In this document: positions 29,541 through 42,220 of the stretch, in pieces
How positions within the stretch are numbered: position 1 is the stretch's first letter
Layout: each line of letters begins with the position of its first letter
Origin: Alphaproteobacteria bacterium
GTDB lineage: Bacteria > Pseudomonadota > Alphaproteobacteria > Rickettsiales > JABCZZ01
DNA: 42,220 bases
Assembly (NCBI GenBank): GCA_013288985.1
Contig: JABDAT010000011.1
Span: 1-42,220 of the forward strand
Reading direction: 5' to 3'
Position numbers and translations under genes: made by a program
Notes under the pieces: model-generated
Told to the model about the DNA's origin: nothing
The model's database searches: none
What the model saw: the letters and a program-made list of their open reading frames with translations, nothing else

Positions 29541-30223
29541 CATAAATCGGGCCTGCGGGTTTTGGTTGTTGTCTGCGCTTCCTGCAGGCGCCAATTTCGT
29601 ATGTCCACGTGATGGCCTGATAACAAAACATCCGGCACTTCCTGGCCGTTCCACATAGGGGGTCTCGTATAATGCGGATATTCAAGCAGCCCGGCAAAAT
29701 CGCCGTCCAGGCTGAAACTTTCTTCGCTTAATGATTCCGATGCACCCATGACGCCGGGAAGTAGCCTCACACAAGAATCCAGCAGCGTGATTGCGGCTAT
29801 TTCTCCGCCGGAAAGCACATAATCGCCAATGCTTATTTCAAGCGGTTTATGGGTTTGCAGCAGGCGTTCATCGACGCCTTCATAGCGCCCGCAGAGCAAA
29901 ATCAAATTTTTCTGTGTGAGTTCATGAGCAAGTTTTTGTGTAAAAGGAATGCCGCGCGGCGTGAAATAGATGAGCTGGGCATTAGGCAATAGGCTATGGG
30001 CGTGAGTGATGGCGGCATCCAGCACATCCGCGCGCATAACCATGCCCGCGCCGCCGCCATAAGGGGTATCGTCAACCGTCTGGTGCTTATCCTTGGCGAA
30101 GTCGCGTATCTGTGAAGTTTTTAGGCTCCACAGGCCGTTTTCAAGCGCCTTACCCGCCAGTGAATGCCCCAGGGGGCCGGGAAATATTTCCGGGAAAAGA
30201 GTGAGGATATGAGCGGAAAACAC
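29522..30223 (-). CDS. trmD: tRNA (guanine-37-N1)-methyltransferase
   Basis: A 233-residue SPOUT enzyme. It has the trefoil-knot motifs [29 protein letters not shown] and [14 protein letters not shown], then the C-terminal [11 protein letters not shown] and VLLSGHH for tRNA binding. It methylates G37 of tRNAs and prevents frameshifting. The start is GTG at 30223, one base after the rimM stop, with GGAAGAG upstream; the longer frame to 30340 only overlaps rimM. The C-terminus ([11 protein letters not shown]) runs into a partial copy of its own 3' region, so its stop codon lies within the duplicate. Confidence 0.95.
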
Positions 30224-30224
30224 G

Positions 30225-30776
30225 TTACTCTTCCTGCTTAATAAAAGTAGGCAGTTCAATGGTCGCTTTGCCTTCTTTAATATTAATGTTGGGAAAAGTT
30301 GCTTTGGTAAAAGGCATGATATCATCCGCACCGGATTCAAGGCGTATGATCACCAGATCGCCCGCGCCAAAATTATGCAATGCGGTGATAGTGCCGTAAG
30401 CGTTGCCCTCGGCGGTAAACACTTTTACGCCTACCAAATCTTCATAGTAATATTCATCATCGTCAGCGGCGGGCAGGGCAGAACGCGGGACGCATAGTTC
30501 AATATTACGTAGTTTCTCCGCATCTTCGCGGGTGGTGATGCCTTTGATGCTGGCAATCAAGACGTCTTTAGTATGGCTGGTGACTTTAACATCAAATGTT
30601 CGTTTTCCCGCCTTATCGGTAAGCGGTCCATAAGACGTAATGTCCTCGGGATCGGCTGTAAAGCTGCGGATTTTTACCTCACCGCGAATACCGTGCACGG
30701 TGGTAATAACGCCAAGGGGGATGAGACGGTTACCGTTTTCTGTTTTCCGTTGTTTGTTTTCCGTGGCTGTATTCAT
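30225..30776 (-). CDS. rimM: Ribosome maturation factor RimM
   Basis: A 183-residue protein. It has the N-terminal RimM barrel ([20 protein letters not shown]), an Arg-rich linker helix and a PRC-barrel C-terminal half ([19 protein letters not shown], ending in [16 protein letters not shown]). It assists 30S head assembly near S19. The first 17 residues ([16 protein letters not shown]) are an extra polar extension. It is separated from trmD by one base and from rpsP by 27 bases. Confidence 0.95.
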
Positions 30777-30803
30777 ACGGAAACCAGATTACGGAAAACA
30801 CTC

Positions 30804-31148
30804 TTACGCTGCAGGAGCCGCTGGAGCTGCTTCTTCTGCGCCGCCTTTTTTCTTGCTGCCGGTGCCTTTGGCTTTAGCAACATAGGTGGGTTTTGCGGTG
30901 ATGACGCCGGTAGCGCGAAGGAAACGAGCCACGGTTTCAGAAGGTTGCGCGCCGGTTCCGAGCCAGTATTTCACGCGTTCAGCATTGAAGGTGAAGCGTT
31001 TTTCATCGGTTTTAGCGAGCAGGGGATTATAAGTGCCCAGCTTTTCGATAAATTTGCTGTCACGTGGGCTGCGTGAATCGGTCGCAACGAGGCGGAAATA
31101 AGGGTTTTTCTTCGATCCGCCGCGGCTAAAACGCAGTGCTGTTGACAT
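30804..31148 (-). CDS. rpsP: Ribosomal protein S16 (bS16)
   Basis: A 114-residue S16 with [40 protein letters not shown] and [19 protein letters not shown]. The core is followed by a Lys/Gly- and then Ala/Pro-rich tail, a common alphaproteobacterial extension. The start at 31148 is supported by AAGGAAACC seven bases ahead; the frame extends five codons further to 31163 without need. Confidence 0.96.
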
Positions 31149-31220
31149 GAGGTTTCCTTCCAAGAATTAAATTTCAGGCGCGCCTTATAGCATTAAGGGG
31201 GAGGAATTTAAAGCGAAAAA

Positions 31221-32573
31221 TCACATTCCCGGAATGATGTTCTTGAGTCCCCCGCGCAGCATGCCTTTTTTGCCGAGCTTTTTCATTTGCTTCATCATGG
31301 TTTCCATCTGCTGCCAGCCCTTGTAAAGCTTATTGATTTCCTGGACGGTAGTGCCGGAACCCTTGGCGATGCGCTGTTTGCGGCCGCCGTTAAGCAGTTT
31401 AGGATTTTTACGTTCCTTGGCGGTCATGGAAAGAATGATGGCTTCCTGGCGCGCAAGCAGGCTTTCGTCGATATTGGCATTTGCCATCTGTTCCTTGATT
31501 TTTCCGATGCCGGGCAACATGCCCATGAGGCTGCCAAGCCCGCCCATTTTTTTCATATTGCGCAGCTGGGAGAGCAGATCATCAAAATCAAAGCTGCCTT
31601 CCTGCATCTTGGCGGCCATCTTTTCGGCTTCTTCCTTGTCGATGGACTCGGCGGCTTTTTCAACCAGCGAAACCACATCGCCCATATCGAGGATGCGGCT
31701 GGCGATACGCGCGGGATGGAATTCTTCAAACTCGCTCAGCTTTTCGCCGACACCGGCAAATTTAATGGGCTGGCCGGTGACAGAGCGCATGGAAAGCGCA
31801 GCACCGCCGCGGCCATCACCGTCAAGGCGCGTGAGGATAATGCCGGTGATGCCGATTTTTTCATTGAACTGTTTGGCAATATTGACCGCATCCTGACCGG
31901 TAAGTGAATCGGCAACGAGCAGGGTTTCCAGCGGCTGGCTGAGCTTTTTGACCTGCTCAAGTTCGCCCATCAATTCGTCATCTATATGCAGACGTCCCGC
32001 GGTATCAAGTAGGACTACGTCATACCCTTCAAGCTTGCCCATCTCTAAAGCACGTCTGGTAATGGCGAGCGGTTTTTCACCTTCTATGATAGGCAATGAG
32101 CCAACGCCAACTTGCTTGGCGAGCACATCCAGCTGTTGCTGCGCAGCGGGGCGGTAGACGTCGAGCGAGGCCAGCAGCACTTTTTTATTATAGCGGTTTT
32201 TAAGGCGCAGGGCGAGTTTGCCGCTGCTGGTGGTTTTCCCCGATCCCTGCAGGCCGACCATAAGAATAATAACAGGCGGCGTGGCGGTGAGATTCAGCTC
32301 AGCATATTCGCTGCCCAGCAGTTCGGTTAAATGATCCTGCACCAGCTTGATGACCATCTGCGCCGGCGAGATGCTTTTTATAACCTCAGCGCCTATGGCT
32401 TTTTCTTTGAGGCTGTTGATAAAATCTTTGACGACGGGAAGCGCTACATCGGCTTCCAGCAGGGCAATCCTGACTTCGCGGAGTGCACCGTCAATATCGG
32501 CTTCCGTGAGCACACCGCGCCCGCGCAGCTTGCCAAGAATGCCATTTAGTTTTCCAGAGAGAGAGTTGAACAT
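31221..32573 (-). CDS. ffh: Signal recognition particle protein Ffh
   Basis: A 450-residue SRP54 protein. It has the N-domain (LTEADIDGALREVRIALLEA), the G-domain with GLQGSGKTT (107-115), DVYRPAAQQQ, DTAGR and TRLDGDGRGG, and a Met-rich M-domain ending in KKGMLRGGLKNIIPGM. It binds signal sequences and 4.5S RNA and docks with FtsY to insert membrane proteins. It heads the block leading to rplS on the minus strand. Length is typical. No 4.5S RNA gene was recognised in the window. Confidence 0.97.
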   Translation of the reverse strand: MFNSLSGKLNGILGKLRGRGVLTEADIDGALREVRIALLEADVALPVVKDFINSLKEKAIGAEVIKSISPAQMVIKLVQDHLTELLGSEYAELNLTATPPVIILMVGLQGSGKTTSSGKLALRLKNRYNKKVLLASLDVYRPAAQQQLDVLAKQVGVGSLPIIEGEKPLAITRRALEMGKLEGYDVVLLDTAGRLHIDDELMGELEQVKKLSQPLETLLVADSLTGQDAVNIAKQFNEKIGITGIILTRLDGDGRGGAALSMRSVTGQPIKFAGVGEKLSEFEEFHPARIASRILDMGDVVSLVEKAAESIDKEEAEKMAAKMQEGSFDFDDLLSQLRNMKKMGGLGSLMGMLPGIGKIKEQMANANIDESLLARQEAIILSMTAKERKNPKLLNGGRKQRIAKGSGTTVQEINKLYKGWQQMETMMKQMKKLGKKGMLRGGLKNIIPGM

Positions 32574-32651
32574 GCATCAGGGCTTAAGGCTAAAGAAGGG
32601 CAACGTCAAGATGGATGCTTCCATTAATATGAGTGATTGAACGGATAATGA

Positions 32652-32679
32652 TTGACAAATTGCCGCGCGTACTTATTTT
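32652..32679 (+). promoter_or_regulatory. Sigma-70-type promoter for tRNA-Lys
   Basis: TTGACA (32652-32657), a 16-base spacer and TATTTT (32674-32679), with the tRNA beginning 33 bases later. The -35 is a perfect consensus match. Confidence 0.65.
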
Positions 32680-32712
32680 GCGGGTCTCATCTTTTGAAGA
32701 TGCAGCAAGTGT

Positions 32713-32788
32713 GATCTGGTAGCTCAGTCGGTAGAGCACCTGACTTTTAATCAGGTTGTCGCGGGTTCGATTCCCGCCCAGATCACCA
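32713..32788 (+). tRNA. tRNA-Lys (anticodon TTT)
   Basis: A complete cloverleaf: acceptor GATCTGG/CCAGATC, D-arm GCTCAGTCGGTAGAGC, and anticodon stem CCTGA/TCAGG enclosing CTTTTAA (anticodon TTT). The T-arm is GCGGG-TTCGATT-CCCGC, discriminator A, and CCA is encoded at 32786-32788. It reads AAA and AAG codons. Confidence 0.97.
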
Positions 32789-32866
32789 CATTATTTTTAA
32801 ATTCGCGTTCAAGCGCCACGCAGGCTGCGCTTCCACTTGGTCGCTAATCGTCGCTATAGCGCTCCT

Positions 32867-32893
32867 CCGGGTTTGATTCCCAGCCATCACCGA
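32867..32893 (+). repeat. Decayed copy of the tRNA-Lys 3' end
   Basis: CCGGGTTTGATTCCCAGCC followed by ATCACC resembles the T-arm and 3' end of the tRNA-Lys gene 79 bases upstream (CGGGTTCGATTCCCGCC, then AGATCACC), with a few substitutions and a short gap. No other tRNA parts are present before it. The rest of the spacer to 33008 shows only a small hairpin, AAGCGC/GCGCTT (32811-32832). Confidence 0.55.
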
Positions 32894-33008
32894 TTTTATT
32901 AAATTTGCGTTAAGTATTTTTGTACGGTTGTAAAAGTGAAAATAGATTGCACGCAAGCCCGTTTTATCTTAAAATAGAATACTATAAAATCAGATAGAAA
33001 CCCACCTT

Positions 33009-33593
33009 ATGGAACGCGAATCGCGTCATCAATGCCTCATTTATGAAGGGCCACCCTCACAACAGCTACCCGCGCTGGCGGCTATGATAAAGCGAAAGCT
33101 GGATGAGGGCTATAGATGCCTATATCTGAATAGCCGTCCAATGGTGGCTGGCATACGATCCATCCTCTCGGCCATGGACGTCAATGTCGAAAGCAATGTT
33201 GCCAGGGCTTCTTTGGTTTTGTCTTCGGAGTCCATCACCTCTGCGGATGGTGGTTTTGATGTTGATATGATGCTGGACAAGCTTGAAGACGCTTTGGATC
33301 AAGCGTTAAACGACGGCTATAAAGGACTGTGGGCAACCGGGGACATGACATGGGAGTTTGGCTCCAAGAAAAATTTTGCCAAACTCATGGAATATGAATA
33401 CCGGCTTGAGACGTTGATGCAAAAACGGCCGGAACTATCTGGAATCTGCCAGTACCATCAGGATACACTGCCACATGAAGTGCCAGGGCAGGCCTTGCTG
33501 ACGCATCCAGTGATCTTCGTCAACGAAACGCTTTCACGCATAAACCTAAACTATGTTCCTTCCGGGGTGTCAAACGAACAGCAGGCTCTGTAA
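33009..33593 (+). CDS. MEDS-domain protein (DcmR-like sensory domain, stand-alone)
   Basis: A 194-residue protein fitting the MEDS domain. It starts ERESRHQCLIYEGPPSQQLP, with ALAAMIKRKLDEGYRCLYLN in the position of the Walker-like region. GYKGLWATGDMTWEF and ELSGICQYHQDTLPHEV follow, as found in that family. MEDS domains occur in DcmR-type regulators and next to histidine kinases and are related to KaiC/RecA folds; here no DNA-binding or kinase domain is attached. It may sense a small molecule for a partner encoded elsewhere. There is no strong ribosome site before the ATG. The following spacer (33594-33818) is AT-rich and holds only an inverted repeat, TAACTAT/ATAGTTA (33695-33724). Confidence 0.78.
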   Translation: MERESRHQCLIYEGPPSQQLPALAAMIKRKLDEGYRCLYLNSRPMVAGIRSILSAMDVNVESNVARASLVLSSESITSADGGFDVDMMLDKLEDALDQALNDGYKGLWATGDMTWEFGSKKNFAKLMEYEYRLETLMQKRPELSGICQYHQDTLPHEVPGQALLTHPVIFVNETLSRINLNYVPSGVSNEQQAL

Positions 33594-33818
33594 AGAGCTG
33601 GTTATCGCGGATTAAATTACCGCGCAGATCATCATCTTTTCCATAGTATATAGGTTGGTTTGTCTAAGCGGAATCAAAGAATCCATGGTATTATTAACTA
33701 TAATTGTTTTATAACAGATAGTTATATAAAGTGATATGTTTTAAATATTAACATCTCGGTAATATTTGCATGATAGAATGCTTACTGAAAATACGTGTTA
33801 ATTTGTGGAAGTCGCTTT

Positions 33819-35942
33819 GTGAGCAAATCACCAACATTGCTATTTGAAGACGATGTAAAAGCCTTTCTTGATATATTTCGTGTGCGTTTATCGAGAAAAG
33901 ATGAACTCGATCCTTCTAAAACAGGGCGTGTCCATGTAGATCTCAAACAAGTTAAGGGAGATGAAAAAAGATCGTTTGGAAAACAGCTTAAGCTTACAGA
34001 AGCTGAAATAGCAAAAGTACCCAGCGAAAGAGAGTTGCATCTTGATCCTATATCGATAGCACATTTATTGATAGAAAAAGCGCGTCTGAATCTTGATGAA
34101 GAGGATCTAAAAAGCTTCCATGAGATTTTTGCCCAAAGCTTTCCCATTGACCGGGAAACGGGGTTTTATGAGAAGAGTTGTAAACCTCTTGTTGCTGGCC
34201 TTGCCCATTTTAATGCGAAGACCAACAAGACGCCTGTCTGCCTGATTGAAGGCGACTTCACTAATATGGGGGGCGCCAATGACAGTGCGCTTGGAAGAGA
34301 AGGCACCAACAAGCTGATTTATAAAATATCACAGATTCTTAAAAGTAGTTTTGCGAATACATTTCCAGATAAAGCGATTGAAGTGCATGGTGTGCGGGCG
34401 GGGGGTGACGAAGTGCAGCTGGCAGTTTACGGCCTCACGAAAGCAGAAGTGGATAAAGTAATTAATGAAAAGATTCGCCCTGAAATCAATATGCTTGCCG
34501 CGCAATTTGGCGTGCATGACATAGCTCACAAAAAAATAGGCAAGCTGCCTGGTTTTGGCGCTGCATTTGCTTCGGTTGAGCTTGGTCAGAGAGAAACTAC
34601 CGCTGCAATACGTACGGCTTTAGATAGTGGTGTTGCCCAAAGTAAAGAGGAAGATGGGTTTCTCAGATTCGGTTTAATAGATGACGAGAGAGTGAATCGT
34701 TATATTGAGCAGATATATGTTCCGCTCTTTAAAGCCAATCATAATAACGAAGAGCCTAGCGATGATGAGAAGGCTCAAAAAAGAGCCTCGCTTGGCAGAT
34801 ACAAAGAAAGCACCAAGGCCTATTGGCAGACACTCATTGCTCCTGGTGGGGAATATCACGATGAATACGAAGGTTTTATAAAGACAAACCCTGCAAGCGT
34901 TAGCCCACATGATTTCTTTAATTATCAGTCTGAACAGAATAAGGGGAATGTTAAGCAGGCATTAGAAGCTATTCACCTTGCCGAAGAAGGAATAGTGCAG
35001 CCACCATTTTTTAAGACAAATATTCCCTTCAGGGACGAACCTCCCGAAATGCAGCGCATGCGAATGGCATTTAAGCAATTTAGTCTTGATAAGCTTGTCG
35101 ATGGAGAGCCGCCCTTAGTATGGAATGATGAAAAGCGTTTCCTGGATCTGGATAGAAAAAGGTTAAACCATGTTAACGGGCCTATATTGCGCATGATAAT
35201 TGATTTTTACAGGCATTTCATTGATGCCCCGGATCCGGCTTCGCGTGCAAAAACAAACCGTTTCAGGTTTTTTGATGCGGATGCATTGAAAAATCATTAT
35301 CAAGGTGCGCGTATAGTGGAATTTGAATTCCAGAATTTAAACGGACTCAATAATTTGAATTATGAGATTGCCGATGCGGCGTTGCGTGATACCACTAAAT
35401 ATATCACTGATGGATTAAAGACATTAAAACACCCTCCGGAGGGAATAAAGAGTGTTGCCGATCGCATTTATAATGCGGGTCCTAAGTTTACGGTGGTTCT
35501 TCCTCCTGAATATACACAAGAGGATGTAAGAGCCTTGCATAAATATGTAGCAGGGCAAATAAAAACGCATATTGCAGATTGTCCTATTGGCAAGTTTGCT
35601 AAAAATACTTATACGTGTTTGCGCACTGAAGAGAATACGCCCAAGGCAACTAAGGACGAAATTGCAGCTATGAATGCGGAATCTAAGCAAAAAGATATTG
35701 CATTGGAAAAAGATATTGAAAGAGTAAGCGAAGGGCTCAATAAAAATAGCCGCATGCCAAAAAAATTAGTGAAAATGTCGGATGTTCCGCACCCCAAAGA
35801 TCCTGAGAAATCTATTGGCATTAAATTTTATACTGACGTTATAGCAGCTAAGGAGGATACGGTATTTAAGTTAAAGCGCATTGATGCGCTGGCAGATAGT
35901 AAATTTAATGGCGCCGCCCGCATTACTGCTACGGCTGTATAG
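33819..35942 (+). CDS. Large protein with two GGDEF-like domains (second degenerate)
   Basis: A 707-residue soluble protein. At about residues 138-255, CLIEGDFTNMGGANDSALG is followed by VHGVRAGGDEVQLAVYG (AGGDEV at 194-199). This resembles the diguanylate cyclase layout, with an Asp-containing first strand, a central signature loop and a later GFGAAFASVELG strand. At about 500-600 a second such half is seen: FEFQNLNGLNNLNYEIADAA and then RIYNAGPKFTVVLP, with AGPKF in place of GGDEF. The N-terminal 130 residues and the 250-residue linker are unrecognised. No membrane helix or EAL domain is present. GTG at 33819 has GGAAG six bases upstream; an earlier GTG at 33795 has none. Catalytic activity is uncertain. 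Confidence 0.65.
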   Translation: MSKSPTLLFEDDVKAFLDIFRVRLSRKDELDPSKTGRVHVDLKQVKGDEKRSFGKQLKLTEAEIAKVPSERELHLDPISIAHLLIEKARLNLDEEDLKSFHEIFAQSFPIDRETGFYEKSCKPLVAGLAHFNAKTNKTPVCLIEGDFTNMGGANDSALGREGTNKLIYKISQILKSSFANTFPDKAIEVHGVRAGGDEVQLAVYGLTKAEVDKVINEKIRPEINMLAAQFGVHDIAHKKIGKLPGFGAAFASVELGQRETTAAIRTALDSGVAQSKEEDGFLRFGLIDDERVNRYIEQIYVPLFKANHNNEEPSDDEKAQKRASLGRYKESTKAYWQTLIAPGGEYHDEYEGFIKTNPASVSPHDFFNYQSEQNKGNVKQALEAIHLAEEGIVQPPFFKTNIPFRDEPPEMQRMRMAFKQFSLDKLVDGEPPLVWNDEKRFLDLDRKRLNHVNGPILRMIIDFYRHFIDAPDPASRAKTNRFRFFDADALKNHYQGARIVEFEFQNLNGLNNLNYEIADAALRDTTKYITDGLKTLKHPPEGIKSVADRIYNAGPKFTVVLPPEYTQEDVRALHKYVAGQIKTHIADCPIGKFAKNTYTCLRTEENTPKATKDEIAAMNAESKQKDIALEKDIERVSEGLNKNSRMPKKLVKMSDVPHPKDPEKSIGIKFYTDVIAAKEDTVFKLKRIDALADSKFNGAARITATAV

Positions 35943-35953
35943 AAAGGTTGGTT

Positions 35954-36145
35954 ATGGATAATAAAGAAAAATTTACTGACAAGCTTATAAAGGAAATAGA
36001 AAATAACGGCGAAGAAAATATCGCTCTTGAAATCGCAGAAGATAAACGCCTGCGCAGACTGGGTATTGATCCCAATCTGGATTCAGCCTCCATTCTTGAT
36101 AAGTTGGATGAGTTAGCGCATAAGCATAAAACGCAAAACGAATAA
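35954..36145 (+). CDS. Small charged protein downstream of the GGDEF-like gene
   Basis: A 63-residue, highly charged and probably helical protein (KEKFTDKLIKEIENNGEEN and SILDKLDELAHKHK). It begins 11 bases after the stop of the GGDEF-like gene, with AAGG ahead of the ATG, so the two are likely co-expressed and could interact. I know of no family for it. Confidence 0.6.
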   Translation: MDNKEKFTDKLIKEIENNGEENIALEIAEDKRLRRLGIDPNLDSASILDKLDELAHKHKTQNE

Positions 36146-36205
36146 TGCTCGGTATTATATTCTGTTTTCTCGACTCTTACCATTCAGCTATGTTATAGCT
36201 GAGCT

Positions 36206-36934
36206 ATGTTTTGGCCCGATGTAATTGCACTGAAAGAATTTTATGCGTCGCCGCTGGGACAGATGGCGTGTCTTGCGGTGCGCAAACGCATTCACGGTTT
36301 CTGGCCGGATGCAAAAGGCGATAGCCTGCTTGGACTTGGGTTTACTACGCCCTATCTACTACCGTTTCTGGGAGAGGCGCAAAGTGTTTTTGCCTGCATG
36401 TCCTCTGCACAGGGGGTCATCCATTGGCCTACAAATGCACGTAATCTTTCTCTTCTTTCTGACGAAGCCGAATTGCCTTTTGCCGATAATAGCATCAACC
36501 GTGTGCTTGTAGTGCATGCGATTGAAAACAGCGAGCAGGTACGCCAGATGATGTCTGAACTGTGGCGGATTTTATCCCCTGCAGGCCGGCTTTTAATGGT
36601 GGTGCCTAATCGGCGCGGGATATGGGCGCGCTCACCACGCAGCCCTTTTGCTTATGGCCAGCCTTTTACGTCATGGCAGTTAAGGCAGTTGCTATCGGAG
36701 CATTCCTTTACGCCGCTCTCGGCAAATTCTGCGTTATTCTTTCCACCCACTACATGGCGCTACATGCTGCGTTCTTCGCGTTTTTGGGAAAGTATAGGCA
36801 GCCAATTCTTCCCGGGATTTGGGGGTGTATTGTTGATGGAGGCGGAAAAGCAGATTTACGCTCCTCTGGTTCAGAAAGTATGGCAGCGCCAGCGCAAAGC
36901 ATATGTACCGCTGGCACAGCCTGCGGGCATATAA
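36206..36934 (+). CDS. Class I SAM-dependent methyltransferase, divergent
   Basis: A 242-residue protein with methyltransferase (type 11-like) order: a weak glycine motif LLGLGFTTPYLLPFL near residue 41, then ELPFADNSINRVLVVHAIEN and MMSELWRILSPAGRLLMVVPN. The C-terminal half (RSPFAYGQPFTSWQLRQLL) resembles a conserved alphaproteobacterial family often encoded next to glyoxalase II, but that neighbour is not seen here. The glycine motif lacks the usual acidic residue pattern. The substrate is unknown. Another frame is open over 36622-36993 but is poorer. Confidence 0.8.
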   Translation: MFWPDVIALKEFYASPLGQMACLAVRKRIHGFWPDAKGDSLLGLGFTTPYLLPFLGEAQSVFACMSSAQGVIHWPTNARNLSLLSDEAELPFADNSINRVLVVHAIENSEQVRQMMSELWRILSPAGRLLMVVPNRRGIWARSPRSPFAYGQPFTSWQLRQLLSEHSFTPLSANSALFFPPTTWRYMLRSSRFWESIGSQFFPGFGGVLLMEAEKQIYAPLVQKVWQRQRKAYVPLAQPAGI

Positions 36935-37017
36935 TCAATTTATTTATCTTTTTCTTTACGGTATACTATGGGGTGTGCTGTTGTTTATTCTGAGACAGTA
37001 TTGAAGGAAGTTATATA

Positions 37018-37908
37018 ATGCGCAGCAAAATCAAAAGTGATTATGAATATGGGTATGAAACTGGTAAAAAAATGAAAAATGGATTTACCCTGATAGAATT
37101 ATCCGTTGTGCTGGTGGTCATTGGTTTGCTGATTGGCGGTATTATTGCGGGGCAATCTTTGATCCGGCAATCGCAGATCAACAGTATACTGGTTGATGAA
37201 CAAAAATACACGAGTGCGGCGCTTTCCTTCCAGCAGAAATATAACGCATTGCCCGGCGATTTTGCCAATGCGGTAGGGTATTGGGGATCCCCATCAGGTG
37301 CTACTACGCCCTATACCAATTCGACTTACTGCGCCGGCATGACGGGTACGGGTACGCAGACATGCAATGGAGACGGCAACGGTCAGATTGCAGAATCTGC
37401 TTACCCAGGGTATGACACAACCTATCTTTATGAGGCTTTTTTGTTCTGGCAGCATCTTGTCAATGCCCAGCTGATACAGGGGAGTTATACGGGCATAGTG
37501 GGCTCGGCAGGTTATACAAGCAGCGCCACGCCTCCTGCCGGTGACCATGTTATTGGCAGCAATAGTCCAAAGAGCCGTATCACTAATGCGGGATTTGGCG
37601 TTTCTTATGTTGGTATTATTACCAGCGCAATGACCAATGCCAATGCAAATTATTTTGCGGGCACATATGGACATGTGTTTATTTTTGGGAGTTATTCTGC
37701 AAAGAATTTACCGGTGGGCGTCGGTCTTACAGGCCAGGAAGCCGCTGCTTTTGATGCTAAATTTGATGACGGGCTGCCCGGAAGCGGCACTATATTGACC
37801 TGGGTGAATTCCACGGGATTTACTCCCAATTGCGCGACAAGTGCAACGGCTTATAACCTGACGACAACCGGATTGCAGTGTAGTTTAATATTTATAACCG
37901 GTTTTTAA
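37018..37908 (+). CDS. Type IV pilin-like / pseudopilin protein with long leader
   Basis: A class of prepilin with the cleavage/methylation signature MKNG|FTLIELSVVLVVIG, in which a prepilin peptidase cuts after Gly and the Glu at +5 is present. The mature part has a 25-residue hydrophobic helix, then ALPGDFANAVGYWG and a globular Gly/Thr/Asn-rich domain with several Cys. GGAAG eight bases before the ATG at 37018 favours that start. This gives an unusually long 22-residue charged leader; the ATG at 37072 next to the signature has a poorer site. No assembly ATPase or other pilin gene is nearby, so it is an isolated subunit. Surface pili or type II-like secretion is possible. Confidence 0.85.
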   Translation: MRSKIKSDYEYGYETGKKMKNGFTLIELSVVLVVIGLLIGGIIAGQSLIRQSQINSILVDEQKYTSAALSFQQKYNALPGDFANAVGYWGSPSGATTPYTNSTYCAGMTGTGTQTCNGDGNGQIAESAYPGYDTTYLYEAFLFWQHLVNAQLIQGSYTGIVGSAGYTSSATPPAGDHVIGSNSPKSRITNAGFGVSYVGIITSAMTNANANYFAGTYGHVFIFGSYSAKNLPVGVGLTGQEAAAFDAKFDDGLPGSGTILTWVNSTGFTPNCATSATAYNLTTTGLQCSLIFITGF

Positions 37909-38048
37909 TAAAACTTTCTAAATGCTGTGGTGTAAATGGTATTTTACTCCTAGGGCTTGATTATAAGTTGAATTTTTTATACAATACTTATGCATCAGGG
38001 GATAAGGCATAATATTAAAAGAATAAAAAATGAATGCGGCAGGAAGAT

Positions 38049-39437
38049 ATGGAATTTACTAAGAATCGGCAGACTTTTTTGATTGCGTTATTTACGGCGT
38101 TATTTTTGTATAGCGCTGTGCCATCGGTATGGGGTTCTTCAGCATCCGCCCAGGAAACGCAAAGCGACGGCAGCAAGAGCAAATCCAAACATGCTAAATC
38201 TAAAGCCGGACATTGCCGCAGCAAAAACAAACATAGCTGCCGCCATACCCATGCCGCGATGACTATGCGGGTACAGCCTGCATCATTTATTGCCGATGTG
38301 GATACGGGAAAAATACTTGAATCTGAAAACGCAGATTCCCCGCGCTATCCCGCTTCATTGACCAAGATGATGACGCTGTATCTTACCTTTGAAGAACTGA
38401 AGAAAGGTAAAATGAGACTTGATCAGACTATTCCTGTCTCGGAACATGCCGCCTCACAACCCCAGACTAATATTGCACTTCAACCGGGCAGTCGCATCGC
38501 CGTGAAGGATGCAATCTTAAGTATTGTCGTGCGTTCAGCCAATGATTCTGCCGTTACATTAGGTGAGGCCCTGGGTGGTGGATCGGAATCCGTATTTGCG
38601 CAGAAAATGACGCAAAAGGCGCGTACGCTTGGCATGAAACATACGCTGTTTTACAACGCTTCCGGCCTTCCCGATCCGGCGCAGCGGACCACAGCGCGTG
38701 ACATGGCAATGCTCGGGTTGGCCTTGCGCAGGGATTTCCCTCAATACTTTCCGTTCTTTAAAACGGAGTCCTTCACTTTCCATGGTCTTACTTACATCAC
38801 CCATAATCATGTTATGACGCGGTATGAGGGGGTAGATGGCATTAAAACCGGCTATATTCGCGCTTCCGGCTTTAACGTCGTGACATCGGCTAATCGTAAT
38901 GGGCATCATCTTGTTGCCGTAGTGCTGGGCGGCAGCACCTGGAAAGCGCGTGATGATAAGATGATAGCTTTGCTCGATAAAACCTTTACCCAGCTTGCAT
39001 CCCTGGATGCAGGAAAGAATATACATCTTGCCTCGGCTGAGCGCCGCAGAATGCCATTATTCCCCGCAAAAGCTGAAAGCACTTCGGAATATATGGAAGG
39101 CGAGGGCGACGTTCCAGGCGACGAAGGCAAGCCTGACGATGTTGTTCCGGCAGTTACCGCACAGCAGCAAGCTTCTATTGCTCCTGTTCAAGGGGAGCAA
39201 TGGGGCATACAGGTGGGAGCATTTGCGGCCGTCACTGAGGCTTCTGCTGCAGCGGCCAATGCCATGAAGCAGGCTCCGGCTGAATTGAATGCATCCGTAA
39301 TAAAGGTTTCAGACGATAATAACGGTGCCGCCATCCATCGAGCACGCCTGATAAATCTTACGGAAGATCAGGCTGAAAATGCCTGCCATAAACTTACCGC
39401 AAACCATGCGCCCTGCTTTGTTTACAGGGTGAATTAA
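38049..39437 (+). CDS. D-alanyl-D-alanine carboxypeptidase with C-terminal SPOR domain
   Basis: A 462-residue periplasmic penicillin-binding protein of the DacA type. It has a signal peptide (cleavage near SASA|QE), then a Lys/His/Ser-rich linker. The catalytic triad motifs are SLTK (S103, K106), SAN (163-165) and KTG (266-268). The C-terminal WGIQVGAFAAVTEAS and LTANHAPCFVYRVN fit a SPOR domain that binds denuded septal peptidoglycan. It trims terminal D-Ala from stem peptides, probably at the division site. The start at 38049 has AGGAAG close by; ATG 38034 is the alternative. The basic linker before the catalytic domain is unusual. No lipobox is seen. Confidence 0.9.
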   Translation: MEFTKNRQTFLIALFTALFLYSAVPSVWGSSASAQETQSDGSKSKSKHAKSKAGHCRSKNKHSCRHTHAAMTMRVQPASFIADVDTGKILESENADSPRYPASLTKMMTLYLTFEELKKGKMRLDQTIPVSEHAASQPQTNIALQPGSRIAVKDAILSIVVRSANDSAVTLGEALGGGSESVFAQKMTQKARTLGMKHTLFYNASGLPDPAQRTTARDMAMLGLALRRDFPQYFPFFKTESFTFHGLTYITHNHVMTRYEGVDGIKTGYIRASGFNVVTSANRNGHHLVAVVLGGSTWKARDDKMIALLDKTFTQLASLDAGKNIHLASAERRRMPLFPAKAESTSEYMEGEGDVPGDEGKPDDVVPAVTAQQQASIAPVQGEQWGIQVGAFAAVTEASAAAANAMKQAPAELNASVIKVSDDNNGAAIHRARLINLTEDQAENACHKLTANHAPCFVYRVN

Positions 39438-39538
39438 TAGCGCGTTGTCATAAATAATTCATATTCTCTTTTGGCTGAATTTGCTATAATTAGCGATAGT
39501 CAAAGCGTGCTTTCAAAGCCGTGAAACAGGAGCCGTAA

Positions 39539-40021
39539 ATGGCCGCAGATACTTTAGTTCTTGAACAGGATAATGCGCTGCATCAGTCTTCATTACAGGC
39601 GTTTGATCAGCGAATAACGGATTGGTTTGTAAAATCTGTGGATGCAGTCGGTGATTTAATCATTGATGGTTTTAATAATGCAATGAATAAGATAGCCGGT
39701 GCGGTAGGTGAAAAAATTGGCTCCTTGAGCGGTCTTGCTCCCACAGGCGCATCGTCCGATTTTGGTTCAGGCGGTGTGTTCTTGCAAGGGTTAAACGGCA
39801 ATGGCTCCGCGCTAGGCCATGCAATAGAACTGCAGCCGCAAATTTCCCCGTCAATTGCACAGGCTGTTGCAGGGGCAGGTATTGGCATGCGGGAATTTCA
39901 GATGGCTGATGTGCCCCTATCTTCACTGACCGGTTATGACAGTATCTCTCCCGTCTCCACCACGCCCGACATGAATATCGGTGTCCAGCCATCTCTGGCA
40001 GCTACTCCCAGCAGGCATTAA
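39539..40021 (+). CDS. Hypothetical protein
   Basis: A 160-residue protein, unrecognised. The N-terminal half is amphipathic helical (ITDWFVKSVDAVGDLIIDGF and NAMNKIAGAVGEKIGSL); the C-terminal half is Gly/Ser/Pro-rich and probably disordered. There is no signal peptide. AGGAG lies seven bases before the ATG at 39539, so translation is likely. It stands between the carboxypeptidase gene and xseB on the same strand. Confidence 0.6.
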   Translation: MAADTLVLEQDNALHQSSLQAFDQRITDWFVKSVDAVGDLIIDGFNNAMNKIAGAVGEKIGSLSGLAPTGASSDFGSGGVFLQGLNGNGSALGHAIELQPQISPSIAQAVAGAGIGMREFQMADVPLSSLTGYDSISPVSTTPDMNIGVQPSLAATPSRH

Positions 40022-40099
40022 TATTAATTTTCTTCCGCATAAATTTCCTTGCTGAAAAAGGCCATATTGCATACTATCCCCGTCTTAAATCAGGGGCAT

Positions 40100-40348
40100 A
40101 TGGCAAATACCAAAGAAGATCCTATAGCATCCATGAGCTTTGAGCAGGCGCTCAAGGAGCTTGAGATTATAGTGCGGAAGCTGGAGACCGGGCAGGGGGA
40201 GCTTGAAAGCTCGATTGCTGATTACACTCGCGGCACTGCGCTTAAGGAGCACTGCCAGAAAAAACTGGCCGATGCTAAAATGAAAGTGGAAAAGATCATA
40301 CAGACGGCAGACGGAAAAATCACTACTGCGCCGCTCGACGGCGCGTAA
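40100..40348 (+). CDS. xseB: Exodeoxyribonuclease VII small subunit
   Basis: An 82-residue XseB with SFEQALKELEIIVRKLETGQ and LESSIADYTRGTALKEHCQKK, the two-helix family signature. It partners with XseA, which degrades single-stranded DNA. The start at 40100 fits the family N-terminus and has GGGG just ahead; the frame is open to 40049. It begins the xseB-ispA-tlyA group. Confidence 0.93.
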   Translation: MANTKEDPIASMSFEQALKELEIIVRKLETGQGELESSIADYTRGTALKEHCQKKLADAKMKVEKIIQTADGKITTAPLDGA

Positions 40349-40391
40349 GAAAAAATAAAATCGCTAAAAAACGATAGTAAAAGGGAAAAGC

Positions 40392-41357
40392 ATGGAAGAC
40401 AGCTTACAACAGGCATTGCAAGACGTATCGGAAGCATTGCAGCGCAAGATGGATGAACTTCTACCCGCAGATGGCGGTGAAGACAGCGGCACGACCGTAG
40501 TGGCCTTCAAGCCGATGAATGATAACAAGCCTACCGAATCTTCTCCCATTGGCGGTGAGGATACGGTCATTAAGGCCATGCGTTATTCAGCTCTATCCGG
40601 TGGCAAGCGCCTGCGCCCCTTCCTGACGGTAGCCTGCGCGAATCTTTTTGGCGTTGGCCGCGAGGCCTCTTTGTGTACTGCGTCTGCCATCGAATTTATC
40701 CATACCTATTCGCTGATTCATGACGATTTGCCGGCCATGGATAATGATGCGCTGCGCCGTGGCAAGCCAAGCTGCCACGTGGTATTTGGTGAAGCCGCTG
40801 CCATTTTGGCGGGGGATGCGCTGCTTACTTTTGCGTTTCAAGTTCTGGCTGATGAACGCGTACATGCCGACCCGGCCGTGCGCTGCGAGCTTATCCGCAC
40901 ATTATCGGTAGCTTCAGGCTATCGCGGCATGGTCGGCGGCCAGATGATGGATCTGGAAGCGGAAAAGAAAAAACTCAGCATTGATGAAATCATCCGCCTG
41001 CAACGCCTGAAAACCGGTGAGCTTTTTGCCATGTCGTGCGAAGCAGGGGCAATTTTGGGTAAAGGCGCGCGCATGCTGCGCAGTGCCTTGCGGGGTTATG
41101 CTCATGATTTGGGGCTTGCATTCCAGATTACCGATGATCTGCTTGATGCCGAAGGCACGCGCGCGGAGGCGGGCAAGGCCGTCAATAAAGATAGGCAGGC
41201 GGGCAAGGCAACACTGGTTTCAGTGCTGGGCATTGAGCGCGCCAAGGAGCAGGCGCAAATTCTTTCCGCCCAGGCTATTGGCCATCTCGAAGTATTTGAC
41301 AAAAAAGCGGATGATCTGCGCGCGCTGGCTGAGTTTGTGATTACGAGAAGACGATAG
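40392..41357 (+). CDS. ispA: Polyprenyl diphosphate synthase (farnesyl-PP synthase type)
   Basis: A 321-residue isoprenyl diphosphate synthase. It has GGKRLRPFLT for IPP binding, the first Asp-rich motif DDLPAMDND (111-119), GGQMMDLEAE and the second motif DDLLD (248-252). The two residues between the Asp pairs in the first motif fit the bacterial FPP synthase type. It makes farnesyl diphosphate for quinones and undecaprenyl phosphate. An insert-like polar stretch of about 30 residues (27-57) precedes the core and makes it slightly long. In many alphaproteobacteria dxs follows; here tlyA follows directly after 24 bases. Confidence 0.93.
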   Translation: MEDSLQQALQDVSEALQRKMDELLPADGGEDSGTTVVAFKPMNDNKPTESSPIGGEDTVIKAMRYSALSGGKRLRPFLTVACANLFGVGREASLCTASAIEFIHTYSLIHDDLPAMDNDALRRGKPSCHVVFGEAAAILAGDALLTFAFQVLADERVHADPAVRCELIRTLSVASGYRGMVGGQMMDLEAEKKKLSIDEIIRLQRLKTGELFAMSCEAGAILGKGARMLRSALRGYAHDLGLAFQITDDLLDAEGTRAEAGKAVNKDRQAGKATLVSVLGIERAKEQAQILSAQAIGHLEVFDKKADDLRALAEFVITRRR

Positions 41358-41381
41358 TTATAATCCTATCATTTATTCTAT

Positions 41382-42119
41382 ATGGCTAAGATTCGCCTTG
41401 ATATGCTTCTTGTCGAACGCAATCTTGCCGAGTCGCGCACCCGCGCGCAGGCAATCATTGCGGCAGGCAAGGTCTATAGCAATGAGGTGAAGCTCGATAA
41501 GCCCGGTCATATGGTGGCTCAAGATATGTCCATTACCATACGCGAAGCGGAGCACCCCTGGGTATCACGCGGAGGTATGAAGCTCGCGCATGGACTTGCG
41601 TATTTTGCTGTGGATGCAAAAGACAAGATTTGTCTTGATGTGGGAGCTTCAACCGGGGGCTTTACCGATGTGTTGCTGCATAACGGCGCCGCCAAAGTCT
41701 ATGCAGTGGATGTAGGCCACGGCCAGCTTGACTGGAAACTGCGCCAGGATGCGCGCGTTGCCGTGCTCGAAAAAACCAACGCCAGGAATCTTGATGCGCA
41801 TATCATTCCCCAAGTGCCTGAGCTTATAGTATGCGATGCAAGTTTTATCAGTTTAAAAACCGTGCTGCCGGCGGCACTTGCGCTTGCCGCTTCCCGAGCA
41901 ATGCTTATTGCGCTTATCAAGCCGCAGTTTGAGGTTGGCAAAGGCAAGGTAGGCAAGGGCGGCGTGGTGCGCGATGCGGATCTGCACCAGCAGGTCTGTG
42001 ATGATATAACCGCCTGGCTTAATGGACTTGGGGACTGGTCTGTGTTAGGCATTACGGAAAGCCCGCTCAAAGGGCCCAAAGGCAATACAGAATTTCTTGT
42101 TGCCGCGCAAAAAAGGTAG
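41382..42119 (+). CDS. tlyA: TlyA family rRNA 2'-O-methyltransferase
   Basis: A 245-residue protein. The N-terminal S4 RNA-binding domain (RLDMLLVERNLAESRTRAQ) is followed by VSRGGMKL and an FtsJ-like methyltransferase domain with LDVGASTGGF (85-94), VCDASFISL and LIKPQFEVGKGKVGKGG. The Lys/Asp/Lys set expected for 2'-O-ribose methylation is present. TlyA methylates cytidines in 16S and/or 23S rRNA and affects capreomycin susceptibility in mycobacteria. It is the third gene of the xseB-ispA-tlyA group. Confidence 0.93.
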   Translation: MAKIRLDMLLVERNLAESRTRAQAIIAAGKVYSNEVKLDKPGHMVAQDMSITIREAEHPWVSRGGMKLAHGLAYFAVDAKDKICLDVGASTGGFTDVLLHNGAAKVYAVDVGHGQLDWKLRQDARVAVLEKTNARNLDAHIIPQVPELIVCDASFISLKTVLPAALALAASRAMLIALIKPQFEVGKGKVGKGGVVRDADLHQQVCDDITAWLNGLGDWSVLGITESPLKGPKGNTEFLVAAQKR

Positions 42120-42126
42120 GGAGTGT

Positions 42127-42220
42127 ATGCATCCATACTGCCAGATTTTCCTTAACAGTCTTGAAGCTGCTTTTGCGCTCGCAGTCCATGGAGAGACGGG
42201 CTGGTTTGCCGCCTGGGCGT
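42127..42220 (+). CDS. Start of an unrecognised gene (cut by window end)
   Basis: ATG at 42127 follows GGGAG closely and eight bases separate it from the tlyA stop. Thirty-one codons stay open to the window edge (starting MHPYCQIFLN). Too short to assign; position suggests co-transcription with tlyA. Confidence 0.5.
   Translation, partial: MHPYCQIFLNSLEAAFALAVHGETGWFAAWA

Follow-up and report, generated by a model that had tools for sequence, protein, structure and literature searches.

A tandem GGDEF-type protein that pairs a catalytic-looking half with a degenerate half in a lineage of Alphaproteobacteria

GGDEF enzymes make c-di-GMP as homodimers with two identical half-sites. Each GGDEF domain binds one GTP and must dimerise to react; an inactive GGDEF domain serving an active partner is common in GGDEF-EAL hybrids, and GGDEF domains can also serve as GTP-dependent conformational switches (PMC7825114). 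Diguanylate cyclases proceed via a linear pppGpG intermediate, which is sometimes seen in vitro (PMC6456294). In OptS, an Asn at the base position shifts selectivity to guanine, and one protomer supplies the metal contacts and another the base contacts (PMC12657218). Cas10 has a pair of Palm domains, of which Palm2 contains the catalytic GGDD (PMC7854544), and binds two ATPs, one in a donor site beside GGDD and one in an acceptor site opposite (PMC10600005).

We analysed a gene for a protein with two GGDEF-like halves in a 42,220-nt stretch of alphaproteobacterial DNA (the window, meaning the whole stretch that was analysed). To judge by its sequence, the protein is an uncharacterised, rare and lineage-restricted GGDEF variant with an unusual tandem layout of one putatively active half and one pseudo-half. 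The open-licence literature (titles and abstracts) on tandem, dual or double GGDEF proteins yielded GGDEF-EAL tandems and homodimers, and no family like this one was described there.

Gene, protein and neighbourhood

The 707-residue open reading frame reported in the preliminary description was recovered in full (Table 1), with the GTG codon at 33819 and the stop codon at 35940-35942. Two observations support the GTG start: a GGAAG element lies 7 bases upstream, and the beginning of the protein is colinear with that of L013, the closest relative (MSKSPTLLFEDD / MAKPELMYQEE). The two signature elements that had been picked out by eye are both present, RAGGDEV at residues 193-199 and NAGPKFTVVLP around the AGPKF of the second half. 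The highest 19-residue Kyte-Doolittle mean in the protein was 0.59, far under the level of a membrane helix; by this measure the protein is soluble, as had been proposed, and no sensor domain was found in it. Searched as a single sequence, it matched no Pfam family at E<10, gave just one weak, spurious FlgC match in NCBIfam (0.16) and found nothing in the PDB by phmmer, so that the GGDEF homology had to be drawn from relatives.

Table 1. Features of the tandem GGDEF gene and the small gene that follows it (window coordinates)
Feature	Position	Strand	Basis or remark
Possible ribosome-binding site GGAAG	33807..33811	+	7 bases 5' of GTG; consensus likeness only
Gene for 707-aa tandem GGDEF-like protein	33819..35942	+	ORF, GTG start, start colinear with L013, eight full-length relatives
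N half, residues 108-285, GGDEF-like with catalytic residues	34140..34673	+	hhalign E 2.7e-9, 150 columns; clade 97/93
DFTNMGGAN, residues 146-154, counterpart of the D-x-D-x-F-K-x-x-N strand	34254..34280	+	D146, N149, N154 identical in 9/9
GGDEV signature hairpin, residues 195-199	34401..34415	+	R193, G195, G196, D197, E198 identical in 9/9
HKKIGKLPGFG, residues 237-247, H-x-K...G-F-G family motif	34527..34559	+	K239, G245 invariant
Linker, residues 286-460	34674..35198	+	Poorly conserved in the nine-member alignment
C half, residues 461-684, pseudo-GGDEF	35199..35870	+	hhalign E 5.2e-12; PDB profile matches; PF00990 in four relatives
EFQNLNGLN, residues 503-511, first-strand motif	35325..35351	+	N506, G509, N511 identical in 9/9
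AGPKF degenerate signature, residues 553-557	35475..35489	+	Both catalytic acids lost, Lys kept
DVPHPKD, residues 655-661, counterpart of the N-half H-x-K motif	35781..35801	+	hhalign alignment to the N-half motif
63-aa ORF	35954..36145	+	11 bases 3' of the tandem gene; homologue at the same place in L013

The tandem gene lies downstream of a tRNA-Lys gene (32713-32788) and upstream of a methyltransferase-like gene. The 63-aa ORF is probably co-transcribed with it. Its local alignment with the L013 homologue scored 80, compared with a maximum of 59 in 2000 shuffles; the homologue is located just below 8794 on the minus strand, directly downstream of the L013 tandem gene, and the small protein is conserved in two genomes of different families. 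It belongs to no known family and was not found beside the other relatives examined. Two relatives from one family occupy the same spot next to sucC, and the relatives' neighbourhoods otherwise contain housekeeping genes; no shared operon or conserved effector gene was found in them.

Several further features of the surroundings were recorded. A gene for a MEDS-domain protein without an output domain (33009-33593, plus strand; Pfam MEDS, E 3.5e-33) lies upstream on the same strand and had no counterpart beside the relatives searched. A DUF6456 protein (E 9.5e-10) is encoded upstream of the tandem gene of another genome, G047 (L018, 10100-10732, minus strand). The genome that carries the window contains two genes for VirB4-type ATPases, L116 and L117 (CagE_TrbE_VirB, E 9.3e-50 and 6.0e-30), indicating a putative type IV secretion or conjugation machinery. 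The GC3 of the tandem gene was 0.37, below the window median of 0.53, and that of the relatives was mostly at or below their own local median, with the exception of L013. Low GC3, the site downstream of tRNA-Lys and the patchy distribution hint at an accessory or transferred gene. A CRISPR or other defence setting was considered and not found: for the window protein PADLOC gave no match to Cas10 or mCpol, and no direct repeats of 20 or more bases were present in window positions 30000-42220; a phage origin was without support from PHROGs.

Relatives, GGDEF homology and descent of the two halves

The tandem gene is single-copy in its own genome (a 1.31-Mb assembly, estimated to be 61% complete), where two canonical GGDEF proteins are also encoded; one of these, like PleD, has two receiver-like domains. 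When 55 related genomes were searched, a single weak match came back (L002/L018, E 4.4e-4); the matched protein has 669 residues and carries FRMGGDEL in the first half and CGGGGHVRLLY in the second. With a profile made from the first halves of two sequences, relatives appeared in five more genomes of the order. A six-sequence profile added another member within the order (L095), and its N-half version added L097 and L098, which come from two different lineages elsewhere in the class. The nine full-length members, that is, the window protein and eight relatives, align end to end; the relatives are 37% (L013) down to 18% identical to the window protein.

More diverged kin were found in G248 and G253, with SNGDEF, and in G578, with a broken signature. 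The proteins encoded by L017 (6941-10606, minus strand) and L096 (3-3161, plus strand) show SNGDEF in the N half, are extended further at the C terminus, with lengths of at least 1,053 to 1,222 residues, and are possibly a second subfamily. The 735-residue protein of L099 (5463-7667, minus strand) has a similar N-terminal motif, ETDFLNTKGMN, together with the broken signature MGDEGSF, and may be a relative whose N half has degenerated too.

In 299 genomes sampled from the phylum, the only matches besides the window were C-half matches at the level of canonical GGDEF domains. Weak PF00990 matches that were followed as intermediates to the family proved to be degenerate GGDEF-EAL proteins outside it, and no relatives of the tandem gene were found in the plasmids searched or in genomes and viral contigs scanned with degenerate DNA patterns. 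The family is rare and patchy within one bacterial class: roughly one in 40 genomes of the order has it, and it was absent from three genomes of the same taxonomic family, two of them incomplete. Canonical GGDEF proteins were present in 16 of 18 genomes (the window's own and related ones), and GGDEF-EAL proteins occurred as well.

Nine-member alignments of each half were compared by hhalign with 16 canonical GGDEF domains from the related genomes. The N half matched them at E 2.7e-9 over 150 columns and the C half at E 5.2e-12, and the two halves matched each other at E 2.2e-9, whereas reversed-alignment controls gave E 0.02 to 0.31. The result was unchanged when the window sequence was left out of the family (E 3.8e-9 for the N half and 1.3e-12 for the C half), and column-shuffled controls of a six-member version never scored above 18.3, whereas the real pairs reached 48 to 73. 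Of 177,635 PDB sequences, 25 were matched by the whole-family profile, all of them GGDEF proteins (best 3icl, 3.4e-5), and essentially all fell on the C half. The N-half profile gave 11 weak PDB matches, of which the two best were GGDEF proteins (DosC at 0.044 and another) and the following ones were unrelated. PF00990 matched the C half below threshold in four relatives (L097, 4.2e-4; L016, 7.9e-4; L015, 0.0095; L014, 0.024), and among the 44 long ORFs of the window the tandem ORF scored best with a canonical GGDEF profile (E 2.6e-4; runner-up 0.01). Single-sequence AlphaFold models were poor (pLDDT 50 for the N half and 45 for the C half). The low-confidence N model placed GGDEV in a strand-turn-strand and had a GGDEF protein, 4zmm, as its top Foldseek match (E 0.018, probability 0.98), and the C model had no convincing GGDEF match.

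On these profile comparisons the GGDEF resemblance of both halves is beyond chance, and the anatomy described here, with both halves in the GGDEF superfamily, is almost certainly right. Profile-profile and PDB profile searches, PF00990, the alignment and the tree agree with the two GGDEF-type folds, one catalytic-looking and one a pseudo-domain, that had been read from the letters, and a remote match to the GGDEF clan, on which that reading hung, was obtained for either half. The second half had been called the weaker of the two, but at the family level the C half is better supported than the N half. GGDEF-like domains do lie at residues 130-260 and 490-610, where they had been placed; their recognisable extent is wider, at about 108-285 and 461-684.

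The two halves share features that set them apart from canonical domains. In a de novo alignment, N-x-x-G-x-N was common to the first strand of both halves, where canonical GGDEF has F-K-x-x-N (the one exception being the L018 N half, with N-x-x-N-x-N), and an H-x-K...G motif precedes a later strand in both. In a 105-column tree, the N halves formed one clade (97/93) and the C halves another (93/86), with canonical domains apart (93/96). The pairs L016 with L095 and L014 with L018 recurred in both the N and C parts, and the window paired with L013 in the C part, the matching N part being unresolved. Support is moderate, given the shortness of the tree and the length of two branches among the C halves. 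The separate N and C clades and the pairings common to both point to one old internal duplication that gave rise to the tandem layout, after which the halves appear to have travelled together as a unit.

Residues of the two halves and candidate mechanisms

In the N half, D146, N149, N154, R193, G195, G196, D197, E198, K239 and G245 are invariant in all nine members, and the HKKIGKLPGFG motif leads into the counterpart of the SIGVA strand in GGDEF domains. In the alignment with canonical GGDEF, D146 corresponds to PleD D327 and N154 to PleD N335, which we take to be the metal Asp and the guanine-base Asn, respectively. GG[D/E]E, the metal Asp and the guanine Asn are found together in the N half of every member. 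PleD numbering and residue roles follow general knowledge and the residue list in PMC6629876, and of the K332, D344, K442 and R446 of that list the N half of the window protein keeps K442 alone. The K442 counterpart, K276, is Lys or Arg in 9/9 members; the K332 position is Gly in eight of the nine N halves; at the D344 position the window protein has N164, six relatives have Asp and two have Thr; and the R446 position of the window protein has no clear counterpart and is not basic. K332 and R446 are two phosphate-contacting residues of PleD.

That these N-half residues stay fixed in nine members, although the relatives share just 18-37% identity with the window protein, speaks for catalysis and against decay, and we lean slightly towards an N half that is catalytically active. 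The loss of K332 and R446 and the altered D344 of the window protein call for caution. Since the N half lacks several defining residues and the C half lacks the signature, no claim is made that the protein belongs to the active diguanylate cyclases.

The fixed positions of the C half are N506, G509, N511 and G554 (9/9). The metal Asp position is E503 in the window protein and Glu or Asp in eight of nine members; the PleD N335 counterpart, N511, is invariant, and D519, the PleD D344 counterpart, is Asp in seven of nine. The signature reads GGGK[FLV] in five members and AGPKF in the window protein: position 555 is Pro, Gly or Ser, position 556 is Lys in six of nine, and neither is acidic in any of the nine, so that the acidic residues of GG[D/E]EF are absent from the C half throughout the family. 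The C half looks like a base-binding pseudo-domain, often with Lys where the catalytic Glu is expected.

As GGDEF domains work only as face-to-face pairs, the two halves would pack face to face as an internal dimer within one chain. The N half would be the donor site, holding Mg-GTP whose alpha-phosphate is attacked, and the C half the acceptor site, where the bound nucleotide supplies the 3'-hydroxyl and Lys or Glu replaces metal contacts. If the N half alone has a working metal site, each active site would form a single phosphodiester bond, and the product would be a linear, pppGpG-like dinucleotide or a cyclic one once it had re-bound. The base-position Asn is invariant in both halves of the family, and as this Asn reads guanine in GGDEF and mCpol enzymes, a preference for guanine nucleotides is predicted at either site. 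Arguing by analogy with Cas10, we give such an asymmetric donor/acceptor internal dimer acting on guanine nucleotides a probability of about 0.4, and it is our tentative main reading. Counting against it are K332 and R446, which the N half does not keep, the altered D344 of the window protein, and the finding of neither a sensor domain nor a conserved effector gene beside the gene. A more specific version seems improbable to us: a stand-alone, CRISPR-independent two-palm synthase, with an active donor palm and an acid-less acceptor palm in one soluble chain, that evolved the Cas10 layout separately and makes a linear, mixed or non-standard guanine dinucleotide rather than c-di-GMP, a product expected on the grounds that there is one metal site only.

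Much of the same evidence could describe an ordinary diguanylate cyclase, in which c-di-GMP is made by paired N halves from two chains, and the C half serves as a GTP-binding pseudo-domain with a regulatory or structural role. The catalytic residues of the N half are invariant and the C half retains base-binding residues; a normal c-di-GMP system operates in this genome and in related ones, with the canonical GGDEF (16/18 genomes) and GGDEF-EAL proteins noted above, and GGDEF-EAL hybrids commonly have a degenerate GGDEF domain that aids the active one (PMC7825114). We nevertheless regard this account as doubtful, as the loss of K332, and of D344 in the window protein, would be unusual for an active cyclase, and a fusion that joins one N half to one C half in all nine members, with each kind of half in a clade of its own, exceeds the needs of a generic regulator. 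A non-catalytic guanine-nucleotide receptor or scaffold, with both halves binding GTP or a dinucleotide and signalling by conformation or through a partner, was weighed as well. Receptors without catalysis usually lose the signature acids, but D146, D197 and E198 never vary in the nine members, which makes a pure receptor unlikely. What speaks for one is the alteration of K332, R446 and, in the window protein, D344 in the N half, the acid-less signature of the C half, the small conserved protein encoded after the gene in two genomes as a candidate partner, and the precedent for GTP-dependent conformational switching by GGDEF domains (PMC7825114).

It is very improbable that the resemblance to GGDEF is coincidental and that the protein has another fold. 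Such a view could draw on the missing Pfam match at E<10 for the window protein alone, on the poor single-sequence models and on the C model, with its lack of a convincing GGDEF match; it is opposed by the hhalign values of 2.7e-9 and 5.2e-12 (3.8e-9 and 1.3e-12 without the window sequence), compared with 0.02 or worse for reversed controls, by the 25 of 25 PDB matches that are GGDEF proteins and by the top Foldseek match of the N model, 4zmm. The pairing of an active-type with a pseudo-type half is kept in very diverged relatives, and for this reason the protein looks like a real, specialised nucleotide-signalling protein.

In this family, two half-sites are fused in one chain, with the acids stripped from one and the other strictly intact across large divergence. 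If the protein is active, it would reveal what a single functional half-site can do, would bear on the step from symmetric to asymmetric cyclases such as Cas10, and could yield an unfamiliar signal nucleotide. Such proteins are likely missing from current c-di-GMP censuses, because the window protein escapes both Pfam and NCBIfam.

Comparison with known systems

The GGDEF cyclases (PF00990, for example PleD of Caulobacter) resemble the tandem protein in that both halves align with them from the D-x-x-T-G start through the base Asn to the signature hairpin; the N half aligns as far as the A-D-x-A-L-Y region and keeps GGDE, the metal Asp and the base Asn. Unlike these cyclases, the window protein has two domains per chain and lies below the Pfam cut-off, and the family has N-x-x-G-x-N instead of F-K-x-x-N, lacks K332 and carries GGGK or AGPK instead of GGDEF in the C half. 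The degenerate GGDEF domains of GGDEF-EAL proteins are similar in being GGDEF folds without the signature acids next to an enzymatic domain, but the partner here is a second GGDEF-type domain rather than EAL and appears to have arisen by internal duplication. The Hypr GGDEF enzymes (GacA) and mCpol/OptS are palm-type nucleotide synthases as well; they descend from GGDEF or are related to it, and their base selectivity is altered. They differ in that they have a single palm per chain, form homodimers or higher oligomers and have no pseudo-half.

Cas10 (Csm1/Cmr2, type III CRISPR) shares with the tandem protein the two palms per chain and an acidic G-G-D signature in only one of them, and its donor and acceptor nucleotide sites (PMC7854544, PMC10600005) correspond to the split that is proposed here. 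The tandem protein differs in its reversed order, with the active-type palm first, and in having Asn rather than Ser at the base position; no Cas10 was among the 25 PDB matches, and Csm1_B was matched by one relative at just E 0.061. As neither a sequence relation to Cas10 nor a CRISPR setting turned up in these searches, the tandem GGDEF protein is not a Cas10, though it may work alike.
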